A stretch of DNA of 64,000 nucleotides from Veillonella tobetsuensis (GTDB lineage Bacteria; Bacillota; Negativicutes; Veillonellales; Veillonellaceae), in contig NZ_BBXI01000002.1 in the NCBI RefSeq assembly GCF_001078375.1, positions 1 through 64,000 on the forward strand, given 5' to 3'. The position numbers were made by a program, and so were the translations under genes. Below are positions 7,212 through 38,536 of the stretch, one piece after another; position 1 is the stretch's first letter, and every line of letters begins with the position of its first letter. Under the pieces are notes generated by a model. The model made no database searches, was not told the origin of the DNA, and was given only the letters and a program-made list of their open reading frames with translations.

Positions 7212-7215
7212 TTAT

Positions 7216-8095: not shown

Positions 8096-10507
8096 ATGAA
8101 ACGTAGACATCTTTTATCTACAGCGATTGCTGTCACATTAGCGTTAGGTACGTATCAAGCGAATGCGTATGATGAGAATTTTAAGGGGTATGAAGTTCAT
8201 AATGTTATTGTTACAGCAGATTCTGCAAAGGACGAGTATGGTAATACCATTACAGAGCAATCCTATTATCGTACAGGCGGTGATGTGAAAGTCATCACTC
8301 GTGAAGAAATTGAAAAACGTCATTACCGTGATGTAACAGAAGCGATTAAACGCGTACCAGGCGTTACATTCCAAAACCCAGGCTACCGTGGTGGCGAGTA
8401 TGGTTACCAATTCTACAATAATGGTGTGTCCATCAATGGCGATTCCCGCGTTGTAGTACTTGTCGATGGTCGTCGTGTAGACAATATTACATCTGGCCGT
8501 TTGGGTGATAGCTCTGAAAGAGGGTCTAAGTCTACAGGCGTTAATATTGATGAAGTAACGAATATGGATGCCATTGATAAAATTGAGGTTATCAAAGGCC
8601 CTGGTGCTTCTCAATATGGATCCGATGCGACAGGCGGTGTTATTAATATCATTACACGCCGTGGTAAAGGCAATTTCAATGGCTCTGTTGATTTAGCAAC
8701 AGGTAGCTGGAATAAGCACAGCTACAACTTAACAGTTCAAGGGACAGCTGGTAAAAATGCTTCTACTGGTTATTTTGTGACAGCTACGCGCAATATGTCT
8801 CAAGACACAAAATATAAAGACGGTGATACTGGTGAAGTAGCTACGCTTACTGGTTCTAAGTGGAAAGAAGAAGGCTTTAATGCTCGAATTGACCATGATT
8901 TTAATAAGAAGCAAAATTTGCAGTTCTCCGTAAACTATAAAAAAGGTTATGATGGATATCCTATTTCTACACCAAGCCGTAAATATTGGAACCAAGAAGA
9001 TTGGCGTCGCATTATCTTTAATGCTGCTGTAGGTCAAGTTGATGCAAATCATCAATTAATAGCAGGTGCCCCTAAGCTATATGGAGACTCTAAAAATCCT
9101 GGATATCATAATCTATATGCTCTAGATGGTAATTATGGCTCCTATAGTAAGTTTAAAAACTTAGAGACAGATTTGAAATATACCTTTGATCGCCAAGGTC
9201 AATTGGAAAGCTTTGTAAGATTGTATCGCTTAGATCATCGTTATGAAGGCCGCGATAAATACGCTTGGACGCGAGGTACACCAGCTGCTGCACGTGCAGC
9301 TTATGAAGCTGCATTCCCAACGGGGACAACGGTTGAGCAATTTAATGCTTGGGTAGATGCTAATTTAGCTCCATTCCCAGATAATAAAGATGCACTCCGT
9401 CAATGGATTGCTGATACTGGTGGTATGGCTGGTAGCCCAACAAGCTGGTACAAAGAAACTAAGAATGGCATAGAGGTTCAATGGACACGTCAATTAGATA
9501 AACACGATATCATTGCTAACATCGATTATAGCCGTTCTCAATTTAACACTAAGTCTTTGCGTAATGGGGTTCTAAAATCTTATGATGTTCGTCGTAATAC
9601 ATTGTATGCATATTTGCAAGATAAGATTTACATTGGTAATAATGTAGAATTAACCCCAGCATTGCGCTATGTAAATTATGGTAGCTATCAAGGTTCTGGC
9701 AGTGGTACTTCCCAAGGTAAAGGTAGTATTAGCTCCTTAACACCTAGCTTACATGGTCAAATTAAATTTAATAAAAACACAAGCATGTATGCAGGTTGGA
9801 CTCATATCATGAGACCATTAAAACAAGGTGATTACACATCTGTGGATGGTGTATTTAATACTCCATTGCAAGATGAAAAAGGCGATGCTTTCACATTCGG
9901 CGTACAACATAATTTTGGTAAAAATAATAACACTACAGTAGCTGTTCACTACGATTACACGCGTATGAGCAATGCCATTGCCACATTGCCAATCTTAAAC
10001 AATGCAACAGGTGATTTTGAAGAAACAGCAGTTAATGCGAAAGAAAATAAACAATCTTTCAATATTACTGTAGACCACAAATTAAACAAACATATTACGA
10101 TGAGTGCGTCCTATTCTCACATGAAGGACAAATGGCTATCTAAAGGTGGTTGGGTGCTTGATCCAAACTGGGGCTATAACAATAGTGATGATATCAACGT
10201 GGCTATCAATAGTTTGCGTCCGCAAAACCATTATTCCTTAAATGTGTCCTACGATAATAAAAAACTCTATTCTGGTTTATTGTTTAACTGGTACACAGGC
10301 AACAGTGATTATGCGTTCACTCATAGACAATTCCTCATCGTTGACTGGAATCTAAATTACAATGTTACGAAGGATTTAACTGCGTATATCGTAGTTAATA
10401 ACGTACTTAACCGCGCTTATGAAACTAGTTATAGTGCTTATAATGGTCGTGGTAGTGCGGCTATGCCAGCGCGTTCCTTTATGATTGGGGCGAAATATAA
10501 ATTCTAA
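8096..10507 (+). CDS. TonB-dependent outer-membrane receptor 1
   Basis: This 803-residue receptor has a signal peptide (1-24, cleaved near ANA), a TonB-box-like VHNVIVTA, a plug with RDVTEAIKRVPGVTFQNPG and IEVIKGPGASQYGSDATGGVINIITR, and a C-terminal beta-barrel ending in the aromatic FMIGAKYKF. It is longer than the other three receptors here, with an insertion around residues 380-450 (RGTPAAARAAYEAAFPTG region). The start at 8096 follows GGAGGG. The next gene, a binding lipoprotein, begins in the last base of its stop codon, so receptor and inner-membrane importer are translationally linked. The ligand is unproven. Confidence 0.9.
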   Translation: MKRRHLLSTAIAVTLALGTYQANAYDENFKGYEVHNVIVTADSAKDEYGNTITEQSYYRTGGDVKVITREEIEKRHYRDVTEAIKRVPGVTFQNPGYRGGEYGYQFYNNGVSINGDSRVVVLVDGRRVDNITSGRLGDSSERGSKSTGVNIDEVTNMDAIDKIEVIKGPGASQYGSDATGGVINIITRRGKGNFNGSVDLATGSWNKHSYNLTVQGTAGKNASTGYFVTATRNMSQDTKYKDGDTGEVATLTGSKWKEEGFNARIDHDFNKKQNLQFSVNYKKGYDGYPISTPSRKYWNQEDWRRIIFNAAVGQVDANHQLIAGAPKLYGDSKNPGYHNLYALDGNYGSYSKFKNLETDLKYTFDRQGQLESFVRLYRLDHRYEGRDKYAWTRGTPAAARAAYEAAFPTGTTVEQFNAWVDANLAPFPDNKDALRQWIADTGGMAGSPTSWYKETKNGIEVQWTRQLDKHDIIANIDYSRSQFNTKSLRNGVLKSYDVRRNTLYAYLQDKIYIGNNVELTPALRYVNYGSYQGSGSGTSQGKGSISSLTPSLHGQIKFNKNTSMYAGWTHIMRPLKQGDYTSVDGVFNTPLQDEKGDAFTFGVQHNFGKNNNTTVAVHYDYTRMSNAIATLPILNNATGDFEETAVNAKENKQSFNITVDHKLNKHITMSASYSHMKDKWLSKGGWVLDPNWGYNNSDDINVAINSLRPQNHYSLNVSYDNKKLYSGLLFNWYTGNSDYAFTHRQFLIVDWNLNYNVTKDLTAYIVVNNVLNRAYETSYSAYNGRGSAAMPARSFMIGAKYKF

Positions 10508-11529: not shown

Positions 11530-11541
11530 TAAAGGAGCAGT

Positions 11542-13349: not shown

Positions 13350-13397
13350 CATACATATAGGGGGTATGGGTTATTGCATGCCTCCTATATGTATGTA
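13350..13397. promoter_or_regulatory. 15-bp inverted repeat carrying a G-tract motif, before receptor 2
   Basis: CATACATATAGGGGG and CCTCCTATATGTATG form near-perfect arms. The left arm contains ATAGGGGGTATGGGTT (13357-13372), which is identical over 16 bases to 15431-15446 before receptor 3. There is no T-run after the hairpin, so an operator or RNA element is more likely than a terminator. The GGGGGTATGG part resembles CsoR-type operators. Confidence 0.5.
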
Positions 13398-13449
13398 ACA
13401 ATTAAAAGGACTTGCAGTTATATAGTTAGTTGTTAGATAGAGGTATAGG

Positions 13450-15393
13450 ATGATGAAAAAAGTTAATAAACGTGTGTATATAGCTACATTGATGACATTG
13501 CTTAGTATAGCCGTTAATGGTTATGCAGCGAATGTAACAACGAATAACAATGAAGAAGATATTACCATCAATGTAACCGCCAATCGCACAGCCCTTCTAG
13601 ATTTGGACACACCTGTAGCGATGAATGTAATTACACCTGAGGAGTTAAAAAATACTGGTGCTACCACTGCTTTTGATGCGGTGGCGACCGTACCAGGGGT
13701 AACAATAAATTCTTATGGTGCTGGCGGTGCCGATTTTGGTGGCATGGATAGCCGTACGAATATTCGAGGCCTTGACCGTGGTGCCCTTGTTCTTGTAAAT
13801 GGCGTGCCTATGAACCTCAATGGCAAAGGTGGACTCGGCTCTATTCCTACGAGTGCCATAAAACGTATCGAAGTAGTGAAAGGAGCTGCTTCTACATTGT
13901 ATGGTGCAGAGGCATTAGGTGGCGTTATTAACGTTATTACTAAGACTCCATCTACAGAGGATGGCTCTGCTACAGTTGCTGTAGGTAATCGTGGGTCTAA
14001 ACGTTTTGATATGTCATACGGTACAGATAAATTCATCGTTGGTATCGATAGAAAATACTGGGGCACACAGGATCCATCCACACCGATTCGCTACGACTAT
14101 GCAGGTACTAAACACTACGATTACTATAGTACTCGCAACAAGGGCAATTCATTGGGGTTCTTTATGAGTGGTAAGCTTTCAGATAAGGTAACATTGAATT
14201 TTAATCGTGCTGAAAGTAAATCGTCCTTTGGTCTAATCAGTACGGAAACAAATCCGGTCAATCAAGCAAGACATTCTACGACGTATCATTATAAGGATGA
14301 TCGCAATAATGCTTCCTTAATTTATAAGGACAAGGGTACTACAGGAACCTTGTTTTATAATGACCGTACGATGCGTGGTACGAGCCGGGTGCACAATACG
14401 TCCCAAGCTAAGGCAACTGAAACAAGCTATCGCTCACGTCAATATGGATTTGATGTACAGCATGAATGGGATTTTAGAGATGGTAAGGACTATTTAATCG
14501 CAGGTGTTACAGGTAAACAAGAAATCTATCATGCAACGGCTGTTCCTGTGTACGTTCATCCTAAACGCAATAGTTATGCTGTGTATGGTAGTTATTCTTA
14601 TGAAATTAACCCTAAATGGACATCTATTGTAGGTTTGCGTTACACCATAATCGATGACCCAATTAGGGATCAACATGTGTTGACGCCACAATTCCAATTG
14701 TTGCACTCTATCAATAAACAATCCTCCATGTATGTGAACATAGGGAAAGCTTTTACAATGCCTAGTTTGAGCGATACATTCCGTAGCGTTAGCCGTCGTT
14801 ATACAGCGGTAAGCAGCAAAAATCTCAAACCAGAAGAGGGTTGGAACTATGAAATTGGGTACAAGCGGATTAACAAAAAGGATGATTGGAAGGTTGATGT
14901 GTTCTATATGGATTTCAAAAACTTCTTCCAATGGCAACCGGATACAAATGGTCGACCTTTGGTGCGAGTAAATGGCGGGAAATTCCGCAACGTGGGCATC
15001 GAAGCCGAATATGGTAGACGTTTATCCGACCGCCTCAAATGGAACGTGAGCGGATCTTACTCTAATCCAAGACAAAAGGAAATGAATGAAAATTACTGGA
15101 AACAAGCGGTCCCTAAATTGCAATTCACTACAGGCATTCGCTATGAAAGCCCAACGTGGGAAGCTGGCACATCCTTTAGCTTTGTTACAAAACGGTTGCG
15201 CAATCGAGATGGTGGCTTAAACCCTAATATTGCCCTTTGGAACGCTTATGTGGGCTATCATTTCAATAAGGATGCAACACTTCGTCTAGATGCACGCAAT
15301 TTGTTAGACCGTCACAACGTTATCACCAATGGGGATTATGAATACTGGGGTGACCCATTCACATATGAATTGAGTTATACACAAAAGTTCTAA
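13450..15393 (+). CDS. TonB-dependent outer-membrane receptor 2
   Basis: The protein has 647 residues: a signal peptide (1-27, cleaved near YAA), a plug with TVPGVTINSYGAGG, NIRGLDRGALVLVNGVPMN and IEVVKGAASTLYGAEALGGVINVITK, and a barrel ending in YELSYTQKF. The block GKAFTMPSLSDTF followed by NLKPEEGWNYEIGY resembles the conserved barrel region of haem/cobalamin-type receptors. It is closely related to receptor 3 along its whole length. It is a single gene in its own interval with a regulatory inverted repeat upstream. ATG at 13450 or 13453 is possible. Confidence 0.9.
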   Translation: MMKKVNKRVYIATLMTLLSIAVNGYAANVTTNNNEEDITINVTANRTALLDLDTPVAMNVITPEELKNTGATTAFDAVATVPGVTINSYGAGGADFGGMDSRTNIRGLDRGALVLVNGVPMNLNGKGGLGSIPTSAIKRIEVVKGAASTLYGAEALGGVINVITKTPSTEDGSATVAVGNRGSKRFDMSYGTDKFIVGIDRKYWGTQDPSTPIRYDYAGTKHYDYYSTRNKGNSLGFFMSGKLSDKVTLNFNRAESKSSFGLISTETNPVNQARHSTTYHYKDDRNNASLIYKDKGTTGTLFYNDRTMRGTSRVHNTSQAKATETSYRSRQYGFDVQHEWDFRDGKDYLIAGVTGKQEIYHATAVPVYVHPKRNSYAVYGSYSYEINPKWTSIVGLRYTIIDDPIRDQHVLTPQFQLLHSINKQSSMYVNIGKAFTMPSLSDTFRSVSRRYTAVSSKNLKPEEGWNYEIGYKRINKKDDWKVDVFYMDFKNFFQWQPDTNGRPLVRVNGGKFRNVGIEAEYGRRLSDRLKWNVSGSYSNPRQKEMNENYWKQAVPKLQFTTGIRYESPTWEAGTSFSFVTKRLRNRDGGLNPNIALWNAYVGYHFNKDATLRLDARNLLDRHNVITNGDYEYWGDPFTYELSYTQKF

Positions 15394-15430
15394 TATTTAT
15401 TTGTAGAGGTTTATATAAAATCCAGTACTG

Positions 15431-15446: not shown

Positions 15447-15526
15447 TTGTGCGGTTTCTTTAAATGTGTAATAATACAAATATGTACTTTTTATGAATAA
15501 TTCGTGTGTGTTATGAGGGGTTTGTT

Positions 15527-17476
15527 ATGAATAAACAAATGAAACGACGTACGTCTCTACTTATTTGTATGGCTTTGATGGGTTTAACTGTGAATGCTTA
15601 TGCAGCAGATGTAACTGCTACATCATCTGACACAGAAACACATGTTATCAATGTTACTGCAAATCGTATGGCGCTTATGGATTTAGATACGCCAGCAGCG
15701 ATGGATGTCATCACTGAGCAAGATATCATGAATAGTGGTGCTAAAAATGCTTTTGATGCGGTTAATATGGTGCCAGGTATTACGTCCTTCTCCTATGGTG
15801 CATCGGGGCTCGAATACGGTGCTATGGATAGCCGTGTGAATATCCGTGGCCTCGAACGGGGGTCTTTGATTCTCGTAAATGGCGTTCCCATGAACCTTAA
15901 TGGTAAGGGTGGTCTTAGCTCTATTCCGACGGACTCTATTGCTCGTATTGAAGTATTGAAGGGGGCTGCATCTGCTCTCTATGGTTCTGATGCAATGAGT
16001 GGCGTTGTAAATGTTATCACTAAGACACCTAATAAAGAAGGCGGTTCTGCTACCGTTGCAGTTGGTAATAGAGGCAGTCACTCCTATCGCGTAAATTATG
16101 GTACGCCTCGTTTCTTGATTGGTGTAGAACGGGGCTTCTTTGGTGAACAAGATCCTTCCACACCAGTTCGTACAGACTCAGTCGTTCGCCCTCGTGGCTA
16201 TGAGTATTATACGGCTCGTGAAAAAGGTAATTCCTTGGGCCTATTTATGAGTGGTAAGGTGAACGACAAGGTGACATTCAACTTTAGCCGCTTTGAAGGT
16301 AAATCTGCTTATGCACAGGTGAGTACTGAAAGTAACGTAACAAACCGCAATCGTCACTCTACTACATATGCCTATGATGATACGAAAAATAATGCATCCT
16401 TGATTTTCAAGGATGATAATACAACAGCAACTCTTTTCTACAATGATAGAGATTTGAAGGGTAAAAACCGGAAACATAATCTTTCATCCTACACATCTAA
16501 TGATAGTAACTATATTGCTCGCCAATATGGTTTTGATGTGCAACACGAATGGGATTTCCGAGGTGGAAAGGACTATTTAATTGCAGGTGTGCTCGGTAAG
16601 AGAGAAACGTACCGCACTACATCAGGTCCCGTCTATGCAAGTCCTCATCGTCATAGCCTTGCTCTATACGGTAGCTATTCCTATCAAATCAATCCAAAAT
16701 GGACTACTGTTCTAGGCCTACGTTATACGGATATCAAGGATCCTGTGAAGAATCAACAAGTGTTGACGCCACAATTCCAGTTAAATCATACAATCAATAA
16801 GGAATCATCCCTGTATATGAACGTAGGTAAGGCTTTCACCATGCCTAACCTCAGCGATACATTTAAAACTGTAAATCGACAATATCAATCGGTTAGCGGT
16901 CGTAATTTAAAGCCTGAAGAAGGTTGGAATTATGAATTGGGCTATAAGCATATTACAAAGAAGGATAGTTGGAAGGTTGCCGCATTCTATATGGATTTCA
17001 AAAATTTCTTCTCTTGGAAACCAGATAGCAATGGTAAAATGACGATTCGCGTTAATGGTGGCCGTTTTAGAAATGTTGGCGTTGAGGCGCAATATGGCCG
17101 TAAATTAACAGATCGCTTGAAAGTAACTGTGGGTGCAGCGTATATGAATCCTAAACAACGGGAAATCGATAAGACCTACTGGGAACAAGCAAATCCTAAG
17201 TTGCAATTTACAGGGGGCATTCATTACAACAGCCCAACATGGACTGCTGGTTCAAGCCTTAATTTTGTAACGAAACGCTTGAAAAACCGCGATGGCGGCA
17301 TCAATCCTAACCTCGTGGCTTGGAATGCCTATGTAGGCTATCAATTCAATGAACATTCATCCTTGCGAATCGATGCACGGAACTTGCTCAATCGTCACAA
17401 TGTTATCTCCAATGGTGATTGGGAATACTGGGATGAGCCATTTAACTACAAGGTTAGCTACACATATAAATTCTAG
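15527..17476 (+). CDS. TonB-dependent outer-membrane receptor 3
   Basis: This 649-residue receptor is a tandem paralogue of receptor 2: NIRGLERGSLILVNGVPMNLNGKGGL and IEVLKGAASALYGSDAMSG match almost block for block, as do GKAFTMPNLSDTF, NLKPEEGWNYELGY and the C-terminus YKVSYTYKF. A signal peptide covers residues 1-26 (cleaved near AYAAD). The start at 15527 follows GAGGGG. Two receptors of this kind may take related but distinct ligands, or the same ligand under different control. The second binding-protein/importer unit follows. Confidence 0.9.
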   Translation: MNKQMKRRTSLLICMALMGLTVNAYAADVTATSSDTETHVINVTANRMALMDLDTPAAMDVITEQDIMNSGAKNAFDAVNMVPGITSFSYGASGLEYGAMDSRVNIRGLERGSLILVNGVPMNLNGKGGLSSIPTDSIARIEVLKGAASALYGSDAMSGVVNVITKTPNKEGGSATVAVGNRGSHSYRVNYGTPRFLIGVERGFFGEQDPSTPVRTDSVVRPRGYEYYTAREKGNSLGLFMSGKVNDKVTFNFSRFEGKSAYAQVSTESNVTNRNRHSTTYAYDDTKNNASLIFKDDNTTATLFYNDRDLKGKNRKHNLSSYTSNDSNYIARQYGFDVQHEWDFRGGKDYLIAGVLGKRETYRTTSGPVYASPHRHSLALYGSYSYQINPKWTTVLGLRYTDIKDPVKNQQVLTPQFQLNHTINKESSLYMNVGKAFTMPNLSDTFKTVNRQYQSVSGRNLKPEEGWNYELGYKHITKKDSWKVAAFYMDFKNFFSWKPDSNGKMTIRVNGGRFRNVGVEAQYGRKLTDRLKVTVGAAYMNPKQREIDKTYWEQANPKLQFTGGIHYNSPTWTAGSSLNFVTKRLKNRDGGINPNLVAWNAYVGYQFNEHSSLRIDARNLLNRHNVISNGDWEYWDEPFNYKVSYTYKF

Positions 17477-17557: not shown

Positions 17558-18520
17558 ATGAATAAGAACATCAGGTTTCTCATATGTTTGATGATACTCT
17601 TTTGTGTATGTATAACAGGTTGTGGACCACTTGTGTCCTATAATGAGAGTTCCCATACGCCTCATACGCGGTATGTTGACAGTTACGATGGGGTTCGTGT
17701 AGCAGTACCTGAAAATCCAAAGCGCATTTTAGCATTGTCCTCTGCATTTGATACGATTTTATTAGGTCTTGTAGAACCAGACCGCTTGGTTGGTATCAAT
17801 AAATTGTCCACCTATGAGGATTACTCTTTAGAAGCGAAACGGGCCAAGCAGGTTAAGCCTGTTATGAGTTCCTATCCTCTAGAGAAGATAATTGCTTTGA
17901 AACCAGATCTTGTTATAGCCCCAGATTATACATCTGCTGATGTTATTTCTGGCTTGCGCCATATGGGCATTGCAACAGTTGTTGTATCATCGGACTCTAC
18001 AGTAGAAGGGGTTATTAAAAATATAAAGGATGTTGCGTATATCGTAGGAGAAGAGGAAAAGGGGCAGTTTTACGATCAAAAGATACATCGTGAGTTAGAT
18101 GAAATGAAACGTCTAGGCGCATCCATACCTCTAGAGCAGCGCAAGACAGTTCTTTTTGTATCCTCTATGGATGGTTACACGGGAACGGGCAGTCTCTTTG
18201 ATGATATGTGTAAATACATGAGTATTTATAATGCACCTAATAAGATTGGCTTACCGCCACGGATACCCTTTGGGGAGGAACGGGTGTTAGTTATGAATCC
18301 AGATTTTATCTTTATTCCGTCCTATAAGGGGATGGATAAGGGGTTAGCAGATAGATATTTAGCAAATCCAGCCTTTCAAAATCTGCCAGCTATAAAAGAA
18401 CATCGCGTTAAGCCTTTACCGGCAGCATACTTATATACTATGAATCAGCATATCGGCGAAGCGATGCTTGCTATTATGCATACTGTGTATCCTCAGTTAG
18501 AAAGGAGTTCTCATGAGTAA
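17558..18520 (+). CDS. ABC importer binding lipoprotein
   Basis: The protein has 320 residues with a lipobox Cys22 (ITGCG). Class III binding-protein blocks are present: PKRILALSSAFDTILLGLVEPDRLVG, IALKPDLVIAPDY and MNPDFIFIPSYKG. AAGGAG precedes the start. The reading frame overlaps the permease gene by 8 bases, giving a second binding protein-permease-ATPase unit like the one at 10507-13349. Confidence 0.87.
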   Translation: MNKNIRFLICLMILFCVCITGCGPLVSYNESSHTPHTRYVDSYDGVRVAVPENPKRILALSSAFDTILLGLVEPDRLVGINKLSTYEDYSLEAKRAKQVKPVMSSYPLEKIIALKPDLVIAPDYTSADVISGLRHMGIATVVVSSDSTVEGVIKNIKDVAYIVGEEEKGQFYDQKIHRELDEMKRLGASIPLEQRKTVLFVSSMDGYTGTGSLFDDMCKYMSIYNAPNKIGLPPRIPFGEERVLVMNPDFIFIPSYKGMDKGLADRYLANPAFQNLPAIKEHRVKPLPAAYLYTMNQHIGEAMLAIMHTVYPQLERSSHE

Positions 18521-19550
18521 ACAGAAAAAACGAATCATGGCGATAACTCTGATTGGGGTATTACTATGTGTTGTAAGCCTCTTGGCACTACATGTAGGAA
18601 CGATTATGATTCCTATTGGCGGGGGCATTCAAAGCATTTTAAATGGTATGGGTATACCAGTGAACTTTACAGAGCCTATTACGGCTGAACAAGAGGCGGT
18701 ACTATGGTTTATCCGCATGCCACGCCTTATCATTGGCCTTCTCGTAGGTGGTGCCTTGGCACTCGCTGGTGCGGTTATGCAAGGCGTTTTCTCGAACCCC
18801 TTAGCAGACCCTGGTATCATGGGCGTATCTGCAGGGGCATCCCTAGGTGCCGTTATCGCTATTGCACTGGGTGTAACATCTCTCGGCATGTTTTACATGC
18901 CCGCCTTTGCCTTTGTAGGGGCCTTTGTATCTGTTGGGATTACTATTCTTTTGACCTTGCGCAATAACAAGTTAGACACGACAACCTTATTGCTAGCAGG
19001 TGTAGCCGTTAGTATGCTCCTCGGTGCTTTTACATCGGGCATTTTGACGATGATTAACGAATACCGGTTGCGTGAATTCCTATTCTGGATGGTCGGTGGC
19101 CTTGATTTCCGTCGTTGGGATCATGTGGCACTAGCTGTAGGGCCTATCGTGACGGGCAGCGTTATTCTGATGCTGCTCGGGCGGCATCTGAACGTACTCG
19201 TTCTTGGTGATACCGAGGCTCGTGCCTTAGGTTTGCCTGTTATGGTGTACCGTATGTTATTCCTATTCCTTGCGTCCGTAGTTACCGCTACTGCCGTATG
19301 TGTTAGCGGTTCCATTGGTTTCGTAGGACTCGTGGTACCTCATATTGTGCGTTTATTAGTGGGGCCGGATCATCGAATTCTACTGCCGATGGCCGGTGTT
19401 GGGGGTGCATTATTCCTCGTATTCTGTGATACCTTAGGTCGCATCATAGCACAACCAGTTGAGATTCGCGTAGGTATCATGACGGCTCTCTTAGGGGCAC
19501 CATACTTTTTATATTTGCTTCACCGCTTGCGCAGTAAAGGAGGGGCCTAA
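18513..19550 (+). CDS. FecCD-type ABC importer permease
   Basis: The permease has 345 residues with about ten membrane helices and the family blocks RMPRLIIGLLVGGALALAGAV, NPLADPGIMGVSAGASLGA and GFVGLVVPHIVRLLVG. It starts inside the binding-protein gene and overlaps the ATPase gene by one base. It is clearly related to, but not a recent copy of, the permease at 11542. Confidence 0.92.
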   Translation: MSKQKKRIMAITLIGVLLCVVSLLALHVGTIMIPIGGGIQSILNGMGIPVNFTEPITAEQEAVLWFIRMPRLIIGLLVGGALALAGAVMQGVFSNPLADPGIMGVSAGASLGAVIAIALGVTSLGMFYMPAFAFVGAFVSVGITILLTLRNNKLDTTTLLLAGVAVSMLLGAFTSGILTMINEYRLREFLFWMVGGLDFRRWDHVALAVGPIVTGSVILMLLGRHLNVLVLGDTEARALGLPVMVYRMLFLFLASVVTATAVCVSGSIGFVGLVVPHIVRLLVGPDHRILLPMAGVGGALFLVFCDTLGRIIAQPVEIRVGIMTALLGAPYFLYLLHRLRSKGGA

Positions 19551-20395
19551 TGAAATTAGATGTTCAATCACTATCCGTTACATTAGGGGAAAACCACATT
19601 CTAAAGGATGCGTCCTTCTCTATTGATAGCGGTGAATTTGTCGGCATTATCGGCCCTAATGGTTCTGGTAAAACGACGTTGTTAAAAACCTTGCGTGGAC
19701 TCTATCCTATTTCTGGAGGCCAGGTTTTGTGGGATGGTAAAAGCATCGCCTCTTTGAGCGACAAGGAAATTGCTCATCATGTGGCATACATGCAACAATC
19801 CGTTAATGTATCCTTTGATTATGAAGCCATCGATATCGTGATGACAGCCCGTTATCCGTATCTGAAATGGTGGCAACAAGAGGGACCAGAGGATAAAGCA
19901 ATCGTAGAAAAGGCCATGAAAGAAGTGGGCGTGTACCATCTGCGTAATCGGTCTGTACAATTCCTCAGTGGCGGCGAGCGTCAACGGGTGTTTCTGGCAA
20001 AGGCCTTGGCACAACAAACAGAGGTACTCTTACTAGATGAACCGACGGCGGCGCTTGATTTGGTGTACGCTGATGATATCTTTCACGAAGGTCGTAGATT
20101 ATGTGACGAAGGCAAAACGATTCTAATCGTCGTCCATGATTTAGAATTGGCTGCCAAATATTGTACTAAGCTCGTCTTGGTTAGTGATGGTCATATAGTC
20201 GATGTAGGAACGCCTCGTGAAGTGCTGACTGCAGAGAATCTACGAAACGCATTCCATCTATCGGCAGCGGTCTACGATGATCCATACTTTAAACAACAAC
20301 GTATCTTTGTATTTCCAAAAGGGACTACGGATATCAAAGCGTATAAACAGACTAATGCTAGTACTGACATGTCTATCGATCCAGACCTGCAATAA
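19550..20395 (+). CDS. ABC importer ATPase, FecE/BtuD-like
   Basis: The protein has 281 residues: Walker A GPNGSGKTT, signature LSGGERQR, Walker B VLLLDEPTAALD and switch His in VVHDLE. It is about 30 residues longer than the first ATPase, with a polar C-terminal tail (TDIKAYKQTNASTDMSID). It completes the second importer unit and lies about 90 bases before the chelatase genes. Confidence 0.92.
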   Translation: MKLDVQSLSVTLGENHILKDASFSIDSGEFVGIIGPNGSGKTTLLKTLRGLYPISGGQVLWDGKSIASLSDKEIAHHVAYMQQSVNVSFDYEAIDIVMTARYPYLKWWQQEGPEDKAIVEKAMKEVGVYHLRNRSVQFLSGGERQRVFLAKALAQQTEVLLLDEPTAALDLVYADDIFHEGRRLCDEGKTILIVVHDLELAAKYCTKLVLVSDGHIVDVGTPREVLTAENLRNAFHLSAAVYDDPYFKQQRIFVFPKGTTDIKAYKQTNASTDMSIDPDLQ

Positions 20396-20488: not shown

Positions 20489-21418
20489 ATGTTATATCCA
20501 TTTACTGCTATTGTTGGTCAAGATGAAATGAAGTTGGCCCTGTTACTCAATGCCATAAATCCATCTATCGGTGGTGTGTTAATCGAGGGGGAAAAGGGCA
20601 CTGCTAAATCTACGGCGGTTCGTGCTTTGGCGAACCTATTACCCCCTATGGAGACAGGGGCTACGGCCATGACCGTTGTGGAACTTCCTATTAATGCTAC
20701 AGAGGACCGTGTTGTAGGGTCTATCAATTTAGAAAAAGCACTACAGGACGGTGTGAAAGCTTTTGAGCCAGGCATTTTGCACGCAGCACATCAAAACATT
20801 CTCTATGTAGATGAGGTTAATCTATTAGATGACCATATTGTAGATATTTTACTTGACGTAGCAGCTATGGGTGTCAATACGGTAGAGCGTGAAGGGGTGA
20901 GCCACTCTCATCCATCCCGCTTTATCCTCGTAGGAACAATGAATCCCGAAGAGGGCGACCTTAGACCTCAGCTGCTAGATCGTTTCGGTTTATCCGTCAT
21001 GGTCTATGGTGAGCATGATCCAGCACAACGGATGGAGGTTATCAAGCGCCGTCTTGCCTTTGGCGACGACCCGGTAAGTTTCGTAGCGTCTTATGCGGAA
21101 TCGGAACAAGCATTACACGAACGCTTATTACAAGCTCGTGAATTATTGCCAAGCATCATTCCCACCGATGAGATATTGTTGAAAATTGCAAGCATTAGTA
21201 TTGGTGTTGGCGTTGATGGTCATCGTCCAGATATTACGATGATGCACACCGCTCGTGCACACGCAGCCTTTCACGGTCGCCATCAAATCACAGAGAGCGA
21301 CCTCAAGATAGCAGCACGATTAGCATTGAAGCACCGTTTACGTCGTTTACCATTTGAGGAGCAAGGTCATGATGAAGACCGCATTGATACAGTGGTAACG
21401 GCTGTGCTTGAGGGCTAG
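20489..21418 (+). CDS. magnesium-chelatase-type AAA+ subunit (ChlI/BchI-like)
   Basis: The protein has 309 residues with the ChlI layout: N-terminal [21 protein letters not shown], Walker A GEKGTAKS (residues 34-41), the [10 protein letters not shown] loop, Walker [13 protein letters not shown] and sensor region [19 protein letters not shown]. ChlI/BchI hydrolyses ATP to drive metal insertion by the large CobN/ChlH subunit, with ChlD as platform. It is followed 2 bases later by the ChlD-like gene and then the CobN-like gene, so a complete three-subunit complex is encoded. No cobalamin or chlorophyll synthesis gene is nearby. Confidence 0.92.
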
Positions 21419-21420
21419 CT

Positions 21421-23472
21421 ATGGAAACATCTGTACGAGAGGCCCTCAAAATAGGCCTTGTAAACAATCAGATTCATACTCTCGTTATTTCTGGTGGTAC
21501 TGGTGTGGGTAAAAGTTATGTCCTTCGCCAGTGCCTCGAGGCGTGGCATATTCCCTATCGTTTGATACCCATTTATGTAGAAAATTCACAATTACAAGAG
21601 ACTATCGATTTTGAAGCGTCCCTAGAGCAGGGCCAGATGATTATGTCCGCAGGTCTTTTAGATGACACTAGTACTCGATGTTGGGTTGTCGATGATGGGC
21701 ACGTTCTGGTACCTGAGGTTCGTCATGCCTTATTAGTAGAGGCGAAGCGACGTCAAATACTGCTCATCATGACTATCAATCATGAAGATAGAACACTAGA
21801 TGATGCGGAGTGGGAACTCGTCGATGTGCATGTATCTATGGCTGCATCTACACTAGAGTCTCGAGTTGCTATTTTGCAACAAAATCGAGAAGAAATCCTA
21901 TGTGGTGAAGCATCTATAGCAGGGGATAATCAATCAGACTTGGACGATGCCTTATGTGAGGAGAAAACTAGCTCAATAGATGTTATTTCAGCTGAGGATA
22001 TGTTATCTCTCATAGCTACTAAACGAGTTCAGAATATTGCTGTTTCGGATGCTATGCTTTCACTAGCCATATCCTATGCACTACAAGCACGCACTGTAGG
22101 GCATGGTGCAGAATACGTATTGCTGCAAGTTATGAAATCTCTTGCAGTTCTTGATGGCAGCTCGTACTGCAAGCCAATCCATGCAGACCGAGCCGCTTTA
22201 TATGTTTTGCCCCATCGTATGAAGCGAGATGAAGCATCAGAATCTCAATCATCACAAGGGGATAATGGAAGTAGTACAAACGACCAAAATCAGTTGCAGA
22301 AGAATACTGAAATAGTAGAGGACTCTGATGTAGATAACTCGAGTAATTCGGGTGGAGAAGATTCTAATGGTGATGAATCCAATCCCAATGAATCAGATAA
22401 TTCCAATAATGATATAAGTGGTAACGAAGATGGAGCGTCTAATCAAGACGTATCCGGCAACGCTAATCAAGAAGAAACGAGCGACACTAATGACGCTAAC
22501 CCTAAGGAACCTGATAGTTCTGATTCAAGAAGCACTGATGCTGATGTATCTAACGGGCTATCTTCTGTATCTTTGCCTGATACTGTTGCCCGTATAGCTA
22601 ACCAGATGTTTCATTGGAAATTACAGTCTTATAAGACTGTAGACCGTCAGTATCGCAAGGGCTCAGGTCGTCGTCTCATGACCAAAACAAAGGATACGAG
22701 AGGGCGCATGATTCGAGCCTATCAAGATGAACATGCTCTTGAGGACTTGGCCTTAGTCGATACATTGCGAGCGGCAGCACCCTACCAACGGTTGCGATCT
22801 GCTGTTAAGGTGGAACAAGAAATACAATCTACGCAGTCTCTGCCATTAGAACAGCAAGAATCTAAGGGATTATCTATAGTGATAAAACCACAGGACTATC
22901 GCCGTAAAGCTCGAGAAAAACGTATTGGTGCATACCAGCTCTTTGTGGTGGATGCGAGCGGTTCTATGGCGGCACGTCATCGCATGGAGGCCACGAAATC
23001 CGCTATTTTGAGCCTCTTGCGTGATTCCTATATTCACCGTGACTCAGTAGGGCTCATTGCTTTTCGCAAGGAATCGGCAGAGGTGTTATTGCCGTTCACC
23101 CGTAGCGTAGAGCGCGCAGAGCGACTATTAGCCTCTATGCCTACAGGTGGTAAAACGCCATTAGTTTATGGTTTACGCATGGCCTATACCATGTGCGATA
23201 GATTGTTGCGTGCCCATCGGGCAGAACGCATTCAGATTATATGTATCACCGATGGACGTGCTACGTCGGGGGACTTAGAGGATCCCGTAGCAGAGGCCAA
23301 ACAATGGGCTCGTATTCTTGGGACCTTGCCTGTAGACTGTATCGTTATTGATACGGAAACGGGCTTTATCAAGCTAGGCCTTACTAAGGAATTATGTAAA
23401 TTAATGAATGGCAGTTATTACGCCATGGATACTATTACGGCGGATGATATTTTACGAGTATCGCGGAGGTAG
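21421..23472 (+). CDS. ChlD/BchD-like chelatase subunit with von Willebrand A domain
   Basis: The protein has 683 residues in three parts: an N-terminal AAA-like domain with an apparently intact Walker A (GGTGVGKS, residues ~25-32) and a Walker-B-like CWVVDDG; an acidic Asn/Asp/Ser/Glu-rich linker at about residues 275-390; and a C-terminal vWA domain with the MIDAS motif DASGS at 511-515. The vWA domain is thought to dock on the integrin-like motif of ChlI and the large subunit. The linker is typical of ChlD. It ends 3 bases before the CobN-like gene. Confidence 0.88.
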   Translation: METSVREALKIGLVNNQIHTLVISGGTGVGKSYVLRQCLEAWHIPYRLIPIYVENSQLQETIDFEASLEQGQMIMSAGLLDDTSTRCWVVDDGHVLVPEVRHALLVEAKRRQILLIMTINHEDRTLDDAEWELVDVHVSMAASTLESRVAILQQNREEILCGEASIAGDNQSDLDDALCEEKTSSIDVISAEDMLSLIATKRVQNIAVSDAMLSLAISYALQARTVGHGAEYVLLQVMKSLAVLDGSSYCKPIHADRAALYVLPHRMKRDEASESQSSQGDNGSSTNDQNQLQKNTEIVEDSDVDNSSNSGGEDSNGDESNPNESDNSNNDISGNEDGASNQDVSGNANQEETSDTNDANPKEPDSSDSRSTDADVSNGLSSVSLPDTVARIANQMFHWKLQSYKTVDRQYRKGSGRRLMTKTKDTRGRMIRAYQDEHALEDLALVDTLRAAAPYQRLRSAVKVEQEIQSTQSLPLEQQESKGLSIVIKPQDYRRKAREKRIGAYQLFVVDASGSMAARHRMEATKSAILSLLRDSYIHRDSVGLIAFRKESAEVLLPFTRSVERAERLLASMPTGGKTPLVYGLRMAYTMCDRLLRAHRAERIQIICITDGRATSGDLEDPVAEAKQWARILGTLPVDCIVIDTETGFIKLGLTKELCKLMNGSYYAMDTITADDILRVSRR

Positions 23473-23475
23473 ATC

Positions 23476-26400
23476 ATGAGTCGTCTCATGTATATTTCTA
23501 ATTTAGGAAAACAAATCCAATATATAGAACAGGCTGTTGCCACCTATCCTGAATTAATACAGGGTGAGGTGGACATCTGTAATATGAAAAAACAGCCCCT
23601 TTGGGATGAGGATTTTGAAAGCCGCCTACGTGCTGCAGATGTCGTTCTCGTAACGAATATGGGGGTTGGCTTAGATTCGCCATTTTTAGAGCGTCTAGAG
23701 CGTTGGCTGTATGCACATCATCCTAAGTATTGGATTGATGTGGTAGAGCCTAAGAAAACAGATATTCTCTATCGCAATATAGACGAAAATCAACGGAGAT
23801 TTCTTGAAAGCTATCGCCGCACCAGTGGCGTCATGAACTATGTGCGCCTTATTAACGGTGCTTTCAGTACAAAACCAATCTCCGAATGGGAGGAACCTGA
23901 CCACATTCCGTGGCAAGCCATCATGGGCCGCGATGGAAATATCTACGAAACCTATGATGAGTTTATGGATGCCGAAGGACATCGGGATTGGCCGTCTATC
24001 GCGGTGTATTTCTATCGCGACGAATGGATTATGGGGGATATTGAGTATCAACAGGCCTTATTCGAAGAAATTTATAAACATCAGTACAATCCGATTATCT
24101 TTTATGGGCAGTATGGCTCGAATCCTCGTGTAGGCATTCCTAATATGAAACTGTCCATGAATCATCTCTTTGGTAAGGATGTATTCCCCTTTGATGTGCT
24201 CATAAATACTTGTAAATTCTCCTATCAGTCCTTAGGGGCGCAAACTTTGGAGGAATTAAAGTTACAGGATGTGCCTATCATTCAGGGCTATACCATATAC
24301 ATGGATGAGAAAACCTGGGCTGCAAATCCGCAAGGCGTGACGCCTTTGGACGTGAATTTATCTATATCACAACCTGAGCTCGATGGCGTCATTCAAGGTG
24401 GCGTCGTGGCGTGTCAAACCTTTGATGAGCGTGGTCACTATGTGTATCTACCTGTAAAAGAACGCATTGCTGCTATTGTAGAGCGGGCCATTAAATGGTC
24501 TAAATTACGACATATTCCAGTATCGGAGCGAAAGGTAGCTATTATCCTGCATAACTATCCGCCTAAAAATTCCAATATTGGGTCCGCTGCAGGACTTGAT
24601 ACGCCTGAATCGGTACGACGACTATTACAGGTCATGCAAGACGAAGGCTATACCGTAGATACTGTGCCAGAAACGAGTGCAGAGTTGATGGATATAGTCA
24701 CATCTCATATGACGAATGACAGGTCTATGCTCACTGATGAGCTCTTAGCTTCTGCAGAAGGGCGTTTGAGTAGTGATGATTACAAAGCGTATTTTGAAAC
24801 GCTGCCAGCAGACACGCAAAAGTCTATGATCGAGTCTTGGGGTGCGGCGCCTGGAGATGTATTCGTCTACGATGATGAGGTTATTATCCCGGGTTTCTCC
24901 AATGGCAATCTATGGATTACAGTGCAGCCACCTCGTGGTTTTGGGGAAAATGTATCTGCTATTTATCATGCCCCCTGTTTGCCACCGCCACATCAATACT
25001 TGGCGTTCTACCATTGGGTTCGGAACGTCTTCGAAGCGGATGCAGTCATTCATGTAGGTACTCATGGTTCCTTAGAATGGCTCCCAGGTAAGGGAGCAGG
25101 TCTCAGTGCTAGTTGCTATCCTGAAATTGGTATATCCTCGTTACCTAATATTTACCCGTACTGGACGACTATTATTGGTGAAGGTATCCAGGCTAAGCGG
25201 CGTAGCTCCGCTTGTTTAGTAGGGCATCTGTCGCCACCGATGACGACGGCTGGTCTATATGATGAGTTTGAAGAACTAGAAGCCTTACTCGATGAGCATA
25301 GTCATTTTGAGCAAGAGCATCCTGAGAGTGTATCGGATATAGAGAACGTGATTCGAGAGAAAGCCATGGCGTGTCATCTCATCGATGAAGAACAAGGCGC
25401 TGCAATGGAGATGGACGATCTTATTACAGCTGTCCATGAAAAGTTAAGCGACCTAAAGCATATGCAGATGAGAAATGGCTTGCACATTTTAGGGCAGGGA
25501 CCTGAAGGTGTGGAGCTAGAGGAATTTATTACCGCCATTGTACGGACGCCACAAGGGGATATTGCATCGGGTCTTGAAATCTTAGCCGAAGAATTAGGTT
25601 ATGATTGGTCCTATATAGAGCAACATGCAGGTGACGTAAATGACGAGGGGATTCGTTACAGTCACATCATTGATCAAATTTGGAGCGAACTGCGTGCGTT
25701 TGTAAGGTATGTGGTGAATACACCAGATTATACAGTGCCAGAACGGCTAGCGCCTTTGGCCGCAGTCATTGTGCGCGAGTATATACCTAAATTAGGGCAA
25801 ACAAAGAATGAGATTACATCCATTTCGCAGGGCTTACAGGGAAAATATGTTGAACCCGGCCCTGGTGGGGCTCCTTCCAGCGGTCAAGTTGATGTATTGC
25901 CTACGGGGCGTAACTTCTATGGCCTCGATGAACGGGCACTACCCACAAAGATTGCTTATCAGCTAGGGATAGACTTGGCAGACCAAGTCATTGCTGACTA
26001 TATCTTAAACGAGCAACGGTATCCTGAAACGGTAGGCATCATTCTCTGGGCTAGTAGCAACTCTAGAAGTCACGGCCAGTGTTTAGGTGAGTTTCTCTAC
26101 ATGTTGGGCGTTCGCCCTAAATGGCAGTCCAATGGTCGCATTTCAGGCCTAGAGGTGATTCCTTTAGAAGAATTACAACGACCTCGTATTGACGTAATGG
26201 GTCGCATCAGTGGCCTCATTCGAGATATGATGCCTACTGCCATTAGTTGGCTTGATAAGGCCGTGGAAATGGTGTCAGAACTAGATGAGTCCCCAGATGA
26301 TAACTATGTGAAAAAGCATATTCACGATGATGTAGATTGGCTCGTGGAGCAAGGTGAGGATCCTTTGTTGGCTACTAAAAAGGCGCGACTCCGTATCTTC

Positions 26401-27099
26401 GGTGACCCGCCACAGGCCTATGGCACCGGTGTAGGCGCCATGATAGAAGGCAAAAACTGGCAGTCCGTAGAAGATATTGCTCAAGTGTATAGCAAGTGGA
26501 GTAGCTTTCACATACACAAGGATATTCCTCAGGATATGAGGCTATTTCAGCGTCGATTAACGACCATGGATGTGACCATTAAAAATGAAGATAATCGAGA
26601 AACGCATATTTTGAGTGCTGACGATTATTATAGCTATCATGGTGGTCTCATTGCGGCGGTGCGAACTGCAAAGGGCAGTGCGCCTCGCGCCTATGTGGGG
26701 GATAGTACCGACCGTAGTCGCGTTGTGATGCGGTCATTGTCGGATGAGCTGCGCCGCGTTGTGCAAGGGGAAACGCAGAACCCTAAATTTATCGAAGCCA
26801 TGATGAATCATGGTTACAAAGGTGCATCGGATATGTCCAATGTGGTATCCCATAGCTTTGGCTGGGATGCGACGAGCGATATCGTACCCGACTGGGTCTA
26901 TGAAGGTTATGCTAACAAGTATGCCTTAGATACAACGGTGCAAGACTGGATGCGTGATGTAAATCCGTGGGCCTTGCAGCGCATTGCGGAAATTTTGTTA
27001 GAAGCCGCTCAACGTGGCTACTGGGATGCATCTCCAACGATGCTAGAGGATTTGCAGTCCTTATATATTTCCATAGAAGGTGTTATAGAAGGTCGTTAG
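23476..27099 (+). CDS. cobN: CobN/ChlH-like chelatase large subunit
   Basis: The protein has 1207 residues, the full length of the family. Hallmarks of CobN: NYPPKNSNIGSAAGLDTPES (~360), HVGTHGSLEWLPGKG (525-539) and the EPGPGGAPSSGQ...LPTGRNFYGLD block (~795-820). CobN inserts cobalt into hydrogenobyrinate diamide in aerobic cobalamin synthesis with CobS/CobT; ChlH inserts magnesium; the related HmuS of Bacteroidetes is found in haem-uptake loci and has been linked to iron removal from haem. Here CobN travels with ChlI/ChlD and uptake genes instead of CobS/CobT. Direction of reaction and substrate are inference. Confidence 0.9.
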   Translation: MSRLMYISNLGKQIQYIEQAVATYPELIQGEVDICNMKKQPLWDEDFESRLRAADVVLVTNMGVGLDSPFLERLERWLYAHHPKYWIDVVEPKKTDILYRNIDENQRRFLESYRRTSGVMNYVRLINGAFSTKPISEWEEPDHIPWQAIMGRDGNIYETYDEFMDAEGHRDWPSIAVYFYRDEWIMGDIEYQQALFEEIYKHQYNPIIFYGQYGSNPRVGIPNMKLSMNHLFGKDVFPFDVLINTCKFSYQSLGAQTLEELKLQDVPIIQGYTIYMDEKTWAANPQGVTPLDVNLSISQPELDGVIQGGVVACQTFDERGHYVYLPVKERIAAIVERAIKWSKLRHIPVSERKVAIILHNYPPKNSNIGSAAGLDTPESVRRLLQVMQDEGYTVDTVPETSAELMDIVTSHMTNDRSMLTDELLASAEGRLSSDDYKAYFETLPADTQKSMIESWGAAPGDVFVYDDEVIIPGFSNGNLWITVQPPRGFGENVSAIYHAPCLPPPHQYLAFYHWVRNVFEADAVIHVGTHGSLEWLPGKGAGLSASCYPEIGISSLPNIYPYWTTIIGEGIQAKRRSSACLVGHLSPPMTTAGLYDEFEELEALLDEHSHFEQEHPESVSDIENVIREKAMACHLIDEEQGAAMEMDDLITAVHEKLSDLKHMQMRNGLHILGQGPEGVELEEFITAIVRTPQGDIASGLEILAEELGYDWSYIEQHAGDVNDEGIRYSHIIDQIWSELRAFVRYVVNTPDYTVPERLAPLAAVIVREYIPKLGQTKNEITSISQGLQGKYVEPGPGGAPSSGQVDVLPTGRNFYGLDERALPTKIAYQLGIDLADQVIADYILNEQRYPETVGIILWASSNSRSHGQCLGEFLYMLGVRPKWQSNGRISGLEVIPLEELQRPRIDVMGRISGLIRDMMPTAISWLDKAVEMVSELDESPDDNYVKKHIHDDVDWLVEQGEDPLLATKKARLRIFGDPPQAYGTGVGAMIEGKNWQSVEDIAQVYSKWSSFHIHKDIPQDMRLFQRRLTTMDVTIKNEDNRETHILSADDYYSYHGGLIAAVRTAKGSAPRAYVGDSTDRSRVVMRSLSDELRRVVQGETQNPKFIEAMMNHGYKGASDMSNVVSHSFGWDATSDIVPDWVYEGYANKYALDTTVQDWMRDVNPWALQRIAEILLEAAQRGYWDASPTMLEDLQSLYISIEGVIEGR

Positions 27100-27100
27100 T

Positions 27101-28012: not shown

Positions 28013-28041
28013 TTTATAGTTTGATGTGTGTGGAGGTTTTT

Positions 28042-29901
28042 ATGAAAGTATCAAAGAAACAACGTTTATCTCTATATGTGGGATTAGCTCTTGTATTTGG
28101 TAGCACAATTAGTGCACCTAGCGTATTAGCTGCTGATGCACAAGATTCTCATACCATTGTCGTTACTGCAACGCGCAGTGAACAACAACTTTCACAAGTA
28201 CCAGCTAGTGTATCCGTATTGACTGGTGACGATGTGCGTGAACGTCATGCCACAAACATGAACGAAGCAATGCGTGTCGTTCCTGGTGTTGACGTTAATA
28301 CGTATGGCGGCGGCGTAGGGTATACGAACTCTAATGCATTCCGCATTAATGGTTCTGAACAGGTATTGTATTTAGTAGACGGCATCAATATGGGGGCCGC
28401 TGGTGTGAATCCGCCAATGACGATTTTGAAAGATATGTCTAGCATTGACCGCATCGAAGTACAACGCGGTGCCGGGTCTACATTGTACGGTTCTGGTGCT
28501 ATCGGTGGTGTTGTGAACGTAATCACTGCAAAACCTGAGGAAGGTGTTCAAACTAAACTTCGCATGATGGGCGGCAGCAATGATTTAGAACAATACGCTC
28601 TCTTGAACGAAGGTAGCAAAAAGGATTGGTACTGGCGTGTAGGTTACCAAAAGGATATCATCGGTTCCTATAAAGATGGTCATGGCAAACGCATTCCGCA
28701 ACATGGCAATAGCCATACTGGTTCCTTCATGGTAGGCAACAAAATCAATGACAAAAATGATGTGAAGGTATTCTATGATACCTATCGCGGCGATGTGATG
28801 TATTCTGACCATATGGGGCGCCTTAATCACATTCGTTACGGTACAGAAGCAAGTGATTCCTTCCGTGCTGTTTGGAATAATAACATCAATAAACGTTGGA
28901 GCCATCAATTGTACGTATTAGATAATCATTATAAAACTAAATATGATGGTTATTTAACAGATATTAAGACTCGTGCGTTTGGTGACCAAGTGACGTATAA
29001 AGCAAAAGATCATACCGTAGTTGGCGGTATTGATTGGCGCCAAGATAAGGTGCTTAATATGGGTGGTGTAAAACTTACGAACACATCTTACTTCGTACAA
29101 GATGAGTGGAAGGTTGCTCCAAAATGGACTGTCATACCAGGTGTTCGCGTTGACCATCATTCTGCATTTGGTACACATACATCTCCATCCATTAGCGTTG
29201 GCTACGATGTGAATGCTAAAACGAATGTATATGCAGCGTACAAAGAATACTTCTTGGCTCCTACACCATATCAACTCTTTGATGGCACAAATGGTAACCG
29301 CAATTTGAAACCTGAAACTGGTCATGAATGGAGCGTAGGTGTTCATCATAAATTCGGTAAAACTTGGAACAGCAATCTCAGCTTCTTTAGTCGCAGCACA
29401 AAAGATAAAATTGGTTGGGTAATGACAAACCCTGCAGCGTTCTCAGGTGAATACCATAATTTTGATACAGAAAAGGCGCATGGTATCAATGCAGATGTAC
29501 GCAAACAATTAACGAAACATGTATCTGCCCGACTCGGTTATACGTATACTCATATTGATGCTACACCAACTCGCAAAGCAAATCGTGATGGCTATATTCC
29601 TAAACATGCGGTTAATGCAGGTCTCGATTACAACGATGTTAAATGGGATGCTCATTTAGATATTCGCGGTGTCATCGACCGTCCAGGTCCTGCGGCTAAC
29701 ATCTTCCCTCGTACAACATATTGGATTACTGATATTAGTGCTAACTATCGCGTGCGTGAAAATGTGACTGTATTTGGTCGCATCAATAACCTATTTGATA
29801 CATACTATGCAGAACAATCTAGCGTTCGTTGGGGCCACGCTGGTGATTGGTGGCCAGGTCAAGGTCGCAACTTCCGCTTTGGTGTAGAGGTTACAATCTA
29901 A
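28042..29901 (+). CDS. TonB-dependent outer-membrane receptor 4
   Basis: The protein has 619 residues: a signal peptide (1-31), the TonB-box-like DSHTIVVTATR, a plug with VPASVSVLTGDDVRERH and IEVQRGAGSTLYGSGAIGGVVNVITA, and a barrel ending FRFGVEVTI. The EYFLAPTPYQLF...NGNRNLKPETGHEWSVG segment is like the FRAP/NPNL region of haem receptors, though this block also occurs in other receptors. GGAGG precedes the start at 28042. Its place after cobN and a binding lipoprotein suggests it supplies the chelatase substrate. Confidence 0.9.
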   Translation: MKVSKKQRLSLYVGLALVFGSTISAPSVLAADAQDSHTIVVTATRSEQQLSQVPASVSVLTGDDVRERHATNMNEAMRVVPGVDVNTYGGGVGYTNSNAFRINGSEQVLYLVDGINMGAAGVNPPMTILKDMSSIDRIEVQRGAGSTLYGSGAIGGVVNVITAKPEEGVQTKLRMMGGSNDLEQYALLNEGSKKDWYWRVGYQKDIIGSYKDGHGKRIPQHGNSHTGSFMVGNKINDKNDVKVFYDTYRGDVMYSDHMGRLNHIRYGTEASDSFRAVWNNNINKRWSHQLYVLDNHYKTKYDGYLTDIKTRAFGDQVTYKAKDHTVVGGIDWRQDKVLNMGGVKLTNTSYFVQDEWKVAPKWTVIPGVRVDHHSAFGTHTSPSISVGYDVNAKTNVYAAYKEYFLAPTPYQLFDGTNGNRNLKPETGHEWSVGVHHKFGKTWNSNLSFFSRSTKDKIGWVMTNPAAFSGEYHNFDTEKAHGINADVRKQLTKHVSARLGYTYTHIDATPTRKANRDGYIPKHAVNAGLDYNDVKWDAHLDIRGVIDRPGPAANIFPRTTYWITDISANYRVRENVTVFGRINNLFDTYYAEQSSVRWGHAGDWWPGQGRNFRFGVEVTI

Positions 29902-38519: not shown

Positions 38520-38536
38520 TTGGTATGCAAAACTTT

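Follow-up and report, generated by a model that had tools for sequence, protein, structure and literature searches.

A CobN-type chelatase with ChlI and ChlD forms an optional cassette in a TonB-linked uptake operon of Veillonella and may act on an imported metallo-tetrapyrrole

CobN is the large chelatase subunit of the late-insertion pathway to vitamin B12, in which it is found as CobNST or, in Actinobacteria and others, with ChlI and ChlD, a pairing like the one described here that has been proposed earlier (PMC9227772). Its PF02514 family also contains HmuS and BtuS of the Bacteroidota, which are linked to TonB-dependent uptake. HmuS is a membrane-anchored protein that removes iron from haem in an ATP-independent, NADH-dependent manner and is characterized by a Met-rich insertion and the pocket motif LSLDHxxEFMGG; its authors state that annotation is not possible for the majority of CobN-like proteins (PMC12583661). 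BtuS is predicted to act in metalloporphyrin salvage (PMC6460266), a TonB-dependent receptor and a cobN-like gene occur together in the Zur-regulated PA1922-PA1925 operon of Pseudomonas aeruginosa, the role of which is not known (PMC4542158), and corrinoid salvage loci of the btuB/btuFCD-cbiZ type encode CbiZ, which cuts the corrinoid nucleotide loop (PMC6461909). Here we describe a locus in a 64,000-nucleotide stretch of Veillonella tobetsuensis DNA (the window) in which chlI, chlD and cobN lie among TonB-dependent receptors and ATP-binding cassette (ABC) importers. Our preferred reading, to which we give a probability of roughly 0.45, is that the operon imports a metallo-tetrapyrrole, a corrinoid being likelier than haem, from which a cytoplasmic CobN-ChlI-ChlD complex would remove or exchange the metal with ATP.

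Gene identities were assigned from open reading frame (ORF) calls and from Pfam and NCBIfam profile searches of the window proteins. These agree with an earlier note on this DNA, which had described a chelatase trio at 20489-27099 and uptake genes on one strand; all genes of the locus are on the (+) strand. The first gene of the trio, chlI (20489..21418), encodes an AAA+ ATPase with the P-loop GEKGTAKST that scores 453.6 bits against TIGR02442 and 389.9 bits against TIGR02030, both below the cut-offs. The product of chlD (21421..23472) has an AAA+ domain with a P-loop, an acidic linker and a VWA domain; it scores 224.8 bits against TIGR02031 (below the cut-off), carries the metal ion-dependent adhesion site DASGS at residue 511, and its VWA domain matches the BchD structure 2x31. 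Immediately downstream of these AAA+ and VWA partners, cobN (23476..27099) encodes a 1207-aa class I chelatase large subunit matching PF02514 with 1190 bits and exceeding the cobaltochelatase equivalog cut-off of TIGR02257 (867.7 bits vs 822). It is the single CobN of the 2.16 Mb source genome and is 90% identical to its orthologue in V. parvula SKV38, the sole match in a scan of genome contigs with CobN. A simple hydropathy scan detected no hydrophobic or membrane helix in CobN, and no signal peptide or membrane anchor was predicted; because it lacks such a helix, CobN is predicted to be cytoplasmic.

The earlier note had drawn a parallel between this protein and HmuS and had proposed placing it in a tree of CobN, ChlH and HmuS. 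In our trees, Veillonella CobN belongs to a clade of Negativicutes proteins with a support of 100. This clade joins the CobN proteins of B12 loci and stands apart from HmuS and BchH. Reference CobN and Negativicutes sequences (19 rows) are separated from HmuS/BchH with a Shimodaira-Hasegawa-like approximate likelihood ratio (SH-aLRT) of 99, and a clade with HmuS is disfavoured by the approximately unbiased test (p 0.039). Veillonella CobN matches 52 of 129 positions diagnostic for CobN (40%), 4 of 51 for HmuS (8%) and 51 of 455 for BchH. The HmuS pocket motif LSLDHxxEFMGG reads LSADDYYSYHGG, with Asp at the position of His1209 as in CobN. The Met-rich insertion is missing (at most 6 Met per 120 residues; 1207 aa vs 1463 in the HmuS structure), as is the membrane anchor. 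The head domain, which in HmuS holds the haem ligands Met79 and His254, is too divergent for alignment by sequence. An AlphaFold model of CobN (mean pLDDT 84.5) is closest to Mycobacterium tuberculosis CobN (7c6o; Z 42.8, root-mean-square deviation 6.0, 1085 residues aligned), with Z scores of 37-38 for ChlH and 32-33 for HmuS. By sequence and predicted fold, the chelatase is CobN-type and HmuS identity is rejected, since the pocket motif, the lack of an anchor and of the insertion, the placement in the tree and the diagnostic residues all speak against it. The contrast that the earlier note drew with respect to the motor is upheld: chlI and chlD are encoded alongside cobN, whereas HmuS is without ChlI/ChlD.

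Likeness to HmuS persists in the family, in the linkage to TonB uptake, in the overall fold and at one catalytic position. All 65 Negativicutes proteins have Thr before the catalytic His (GTHG), the same as HmuS, whereas among six CobN of aerobic-type loci Lys occupies this position in five (GKHG) and Ala in the sixth; one haloarchaeal CobN also has Thr. Compared with CobN of the late-insertion pathway, which it resembles in passing TIGR02257, in its closest structure and in its sister position in the tree, the Veillonella protein differs in this residue and in its separate clade, and it is encoded in an uptake operon of a host with an anaerobic CbiK pathway. With magnesium chelatase the system shares ChlI, ChlD and the fold of the large subunit, but the tree places that subunit at a great distance from BchH, and no chlorophyll genes were found in the window. 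The PA1922-PA1925 operon differs in being zinc-regulated and in that its listed genes include neither ChlI/ChlD nor a FecCD importer, a distinction made from its description, not its sequence.

Several variants of the family were observed on the way. In a CobN subclade of five TonB uptake loci (L065, L067, L087, L097 and L098) a run of three cysteines stands in place of the SDDY pocket motif (L067 and L097 read GCCCxF), possibly for a different metal. Another Negativicutes PF02514 group (L072, L084, L085 and L086) has LDHYYEY, with His at the HmuS/ChlH position, and forms a long branch near BchH. On plasmid pRUNSL01 of Runella slithyformis (L105), an HmuS-like gene, a receptor, ExbB and DUF2149 lie between hypF and hypC/hypD/hypE, which suggests a nickel rather than a haem role; on plasmid pGLOV01 of Trichlorobacter lovleyi (L104), an HmuS-like gene lies between two TonB/ExbB systems near bzaF and cobT, genes of corrinoid lower-ligand synthesis.

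The absence of cobalamin and haem synthesis genes noted earlier holds for the larger profiled ORFs of the window but not for the genome. Contig C15 carries an anaerobic cbi cluster with CbiL, CbiF, CbiG, CbiC, CbiA and a CobA-type adenosyltransferase (NCBIfam), CbiD (Pfam) and CbiK-family chelatases; siroheme-pathway genes are found on contig C19, ferrochelatase on contig C22, and a CobA/HemD fusion among the apparent hem genes. One CbiK-family protein of this genome (L002:10634-11635) has an apparent signal sequence, and so is apparently exported, and adjoins an SBP-ABC-FecCD importer (SBP, substrate-binding protein) inside the cbi cluster. PF02514 CobN was detected in 80 of 200 sampled Negativicutes genomes; every one of the 80 also matches CbiK, though weakly in a few cases, and 78 encode CbiD; the two that do not are incomplete genomes, at 73% and 83%. 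In a survey of 56 main-clade CobN loci, 45 were seen to have an uptake gene (for a receptor, an SBP or FecCD) no more than 8 kb away, 35 to have ChlI/D and just one to have a corrin-synthesis gene, which is CbiC-like, whereas reference CobN of B12 loci adjoin cob/cbi genes. This neighbourhood comparison, suggested in the earlier note, agrees with its view that the chelatase is part of an uptake locus and not of B12 synthesis. Because CbiK chelatases are encoded in the cbi cluster, CbiK co-occurs class-wide and all but one of the loci are without corrin-synthesis genes, the chelatase, as far as gene content can tell, is not the B12 chelatase and is dispensable for B12 synthesis. Aerobic, late-insertion B12 synthesis as its main role is rejected on the same class-wide pattern, the lack of a B12 gene in the window, the CbiK pathway elsewhere and GTHG in place of GKHG. 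Genome reconstructions count ChlID-CobN as a marker of B12 synthesis (PMC6593275); in Negativicutes, cobN should not serve as one.

The genes from chlI through chlD, cobN and the following SBP gene to the last receptor gene are separated by 2, 3, 1 and 8 bases, the ORF coordinates confirming the single base that the earlier note placed between cobN and the lipoprotein gene. Among 14 Veillonella genomes the full locus is found in three besides the source genome. Gene order is equal in a sister genus, the sister locus L044 reading SBP-FecCD-ABC-ChlI-ChlD-CobN-SBP-receptor as in Veillonella, with identities of 73% for the permease, 61% for the receptor and 54% for CobN. This recurrence argues against a chance arrangement. 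That the chelatase is unrelated to its transporter neighbours would fit the 11 of 56 loci in which no uptake gene was found within 8 kb, but gaps of 1-8 bases, the same order in two genera and recurrent association in distant families make it most improbable.

Other relatives carry parts of the locus. In Veillonella G160, what is left is a remnant of CobN together with the SBP and receptor genes that follow it, and in others, such as G050, the whole locus is absent between conserved flanks. G136 and G148 retain exbBD-tonB, receptor, SBP-FecCD-ABC, SBP and receptor but lack ChlI-ChlD-CobN between the ABC and SBP genes; sister-genus G193 similarly retains NifD-NifD-NifH-CbiZ-receptor-SBP-ABC-FecCD and lacks the three genes at that site. 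Judged from these arrangements, ChlI-ChlD-CobN is an optional three-gene cassette, gained or lost as a unit, while the uptake operon persists without it. Import is therefore independent of the chelatase, and the cargo would seem to be of use without it, which is easier to reconcile with a ring that arrives carrying its metal than with one that is metal-free; the cargo is probably useful in its metallated state.

Indications of the cargo come mainly from relatives. Loci of the sister clade (L044 and L045) additionally encode radical SAM, CbiZ and NifH-like proteins, with two NifD-like genes in L044, and long-type cbiZ lies within 10 kb of cobN in 33 of 58 cases in CobN-positive genomes. Since CbiZ acts on the corrinoid nucleotide loop, this linkage indicates a corrinoid cargo. 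The Veillonella locus resembles CbiZ-linked corrinoid salvage loci in its BtuB-like receptor and BtuC-like permease, and cbiZ is present in sister-genus loci, but the Veillonella locus itself is without cbiZ; we know of no description of btuB/btuFCD-cbiZ loci carrying a chelatase. BtuB and BtuC are the best or near-best models for receptor and permease despite scores below the cut-offs: the last receptor (28021..29901) scores 199.6 bits against BtuB (cut-off 599.7) and 182.6 bits against the haem receptor model, and its PDB matches are CirA and BtuB.

A porphyrin cargo is indicated by another genus of the same family (L046-L049), in which the genes directly after ChlI-ChlD(-CobN) encode HemE, HemH ferrochelatase and a 758-aa CgoX-ChdC fusion of a flavin amine oxidase (CgoX-like) and a chlorite-dismutase-family (ChdC-like) domain, together the coproporphyrin haem branch. 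Ferrochelatase lies inside the CobN locus in all six such genomes of this genus. The cassette might accordingly be an ATP-driven analogue of HmuS that takes iron, or another metal, from imported haem in the cytoplasm and returns the porphyrin to ferrochelatase, and the best PDB matches of the two SBPs tested are haem-binding SBPs, although weak. The GY tyrosine of those relatives, the haem ligand in that SBP family, does not align to a tyrosine in the locus SBPs, however; the HmuS pocket motif is replaced by LSADDYYSYHGG, the receptor scores higher with BtuB than with haem receptor models, and haem genes were seen in one examined genus only. We regard haem or porphyrin salvage as decidedly unlikely.

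NifD-like genes are present in 19, radical SAM genes in 24 and CbiK in 7 of the 56 main-clade loci. These companions could point to a self-made metallophore or cofactor, in which CbiK, NifH/NifD-like, radical SAM and CobN proteins of relatives make a modified metallo-tetrapyrrole and Veillonella retains only uptake and metal handling. Since Veillonella lacks NifD-like genes, its locus encodes no exporter and no product is known, this is quite improbable. Near radical SAM/SPASM genes (best model PapB ranthipeptide maturase), L092 (11824-12150) and six other CobN loci encode a protein of about 108 aa with two similar repeats, which could be a modified peptide. The metallo-tetrapyrrole substrate suggested in the earlier note gains from the CbiZ, nitrogenase-like and haem-branch genes of related loci, and the haem among its candidates loses from SBPs without the GY tyrosine. 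Because CbiZ, nitrogenase-like, radical SAM or haem-branch genes occur in related loci, the substrate is in all likelihood a tetrapyrrole, and a corrinoid appears a better candidate than haem.

In the favoured scheme, receptor and TonB would bring a metallo-tetrapyrrole across the outer membrane, and the lipoprotein and BtuCD-like importer would pass it to the cytoplasm, which the lack of a signal or membrane helix suggests as the site of the chelatase reaction. There CobN would hold the ring while the ChlI-ChlD AAA+ motor removes or exchanges the central metal with ATP, an optional addition to a transport operon functional without it. Removal or exchange is somewhat likelier than insertion because of the uptake linkage, the HmuS-like Thr, the cassette-free operons and the redundancy with CbiK. 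The alternative is that the complex loads cobalt into corrinoids that are metal-free or damaged when imported, or is a second cobalt chelatase beside CbiK. CobN scores as a cobaltochelatase equivalog with 40% of CobN-diagnostic positions against 8% for HmuS, is found almost solely in B12 makers and has the ATP motor typical of inserting chelatases, and CobN with ChlI/ChlD has already been proposed as a cobalt chelatase (PMC9227772). But CbiK already inserts cobalt early in the host pathway, only one of 56 loci has a corrin-synthesis gene, and the survival of uptake operons without the chelatase would be odd if import were useless absent insertion; we place insertion on the unlikely side.

Several points weigh against metal removal from an imported tetrapyrrole. 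To our knowledge, every ATP-driven class I chelatase (ChlHID, CobNST) inserts metal, and cobalt is very hard to pull from the corrin ring. B12 makers account for 78 of 80 CobN-positive genomes and 98 of 120 others (Fisher p = 0.0006), which metal insertion would also explain. Receptor and SBPs match BtuB or haem proteins weakly or fall short of the equivalog cut-offs (BtuB 199.6/599.7, BtuC 282.2/461), no NifD-like gene occurs in Veillonella, and the sole Veillonella CbiZ lies outside the locus. No regulator site was found, there being no Fur-type box above chance at the locus and no cobalamin riboswitch in the window (three lie elsewhere in the genome). HmuS, moreover, removes metal without ATP (PMC12583661).

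Literature searches for CobN or haem uptake in Veillonella, and for CobN together with TonB, nitrogenase-like proteins or CbiZ, returned nothing on this system. CobN paired with ChlI/ChlD (as a proposal) is already known, as are CobN-like proteins that take part in the uptake of metal or haem (HmuS/BtuS, PA1923). The literature searched gave no description of a CobN-type, ChlID-coupled and apparently cytoplasmic cassette that sits in Negativicutes uptake operons and is accompanied by CbiZ, nitrogenase-like or haem-branch genes. The set defines a CobN clade of human-associated anaerobes whose role can be tested, with cassette-free strains as natural controls. ATP-driven removal, if true, would mean that tetrapyrroles are de-chelated by a second mechanism and that gut and oral anaerobes have a new route to cobalt or iron. 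A further-reaching form, which we consider doubtful, is that Negativicutes run CobN-ChlI-ChlD in reverse in the cytoplasm, where it would strip or exchange the cobalt (or another metal) of corrinoids or other tetrapyrroles after import, and that in relatives nitrogenase-like reductase, CbiZ and radical SAM proteins process the ring further. If an enzyme does strip the corrin ring of its cobalt in this way, we know of no earlier case.

The remainder of the locus consists of transport genes. It starts at 8081 with a GTG codon, not at 8096 as first annotated, or at 6187 if ExbB is counted. The exbB, exbD and tonB genes (6187..7959; PF01618, PF02472 and PF03544), the energy supply of outer-membrane uptake, are syntenic in the examined Veillonella genomes holding the locus. 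An 808-aa TonB-dependent receptor (8081..10507; PF07715 and PF00593) is encoded beside cobN in three other CobN-positive Veillonella and is absent from the chelatase-less loci L111 and L112. Importer unit 1 comprises a lipoprotein SBP (10507-11529; PF01497), a BtuC/FecCD permease (11542-12588; PF01032), whose best NCBIfam models are the F420-0 permease and BtuC, all below cut-off, and an ABC ATPase (12588-13349; PF00005). Family searches identified two further TonB-dependent receptors (13450..15393 and 15506..17476) and, in importer unit 2, a lipoprotein SBP (17558-18520) and an ABC ATPase (19550-20395) flanking a BtuC-like permease (18513-19550; best model BtuC PRK09535, 282.2 bits vs a cut-off of 461). 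Chelatase-less strains retain unit 2 (17558..20395) and an orthologue of the 15506..17476 receptor. Downstream of cobN lies the third lipoprotein SBP gene (27101-28012; PF01497, lipobox LLFGC); the binding proteins of the locus carry lipoboxes. Gaps of 81-121 bases elsewhere in the locus set apart possible sub-operons. A GGGTAT-type motif shared upstream of three units seemed regulatory but was set aside, because other Veillonella for the most part do not conserve it. The window also encodes, about 9 kb beyond the downstream end of the locus, a five-gene ABC importer (38525-43486) whose NikA-like binding protein scores 345 bits against NF045468 (cut-off 600), and at 45864-46095 on the (-) strand there is a weak Rfam match to the Streptococcus small RNA SpF66 (45.3 bits; gathering threshold 42), unexpected in Veillonella.

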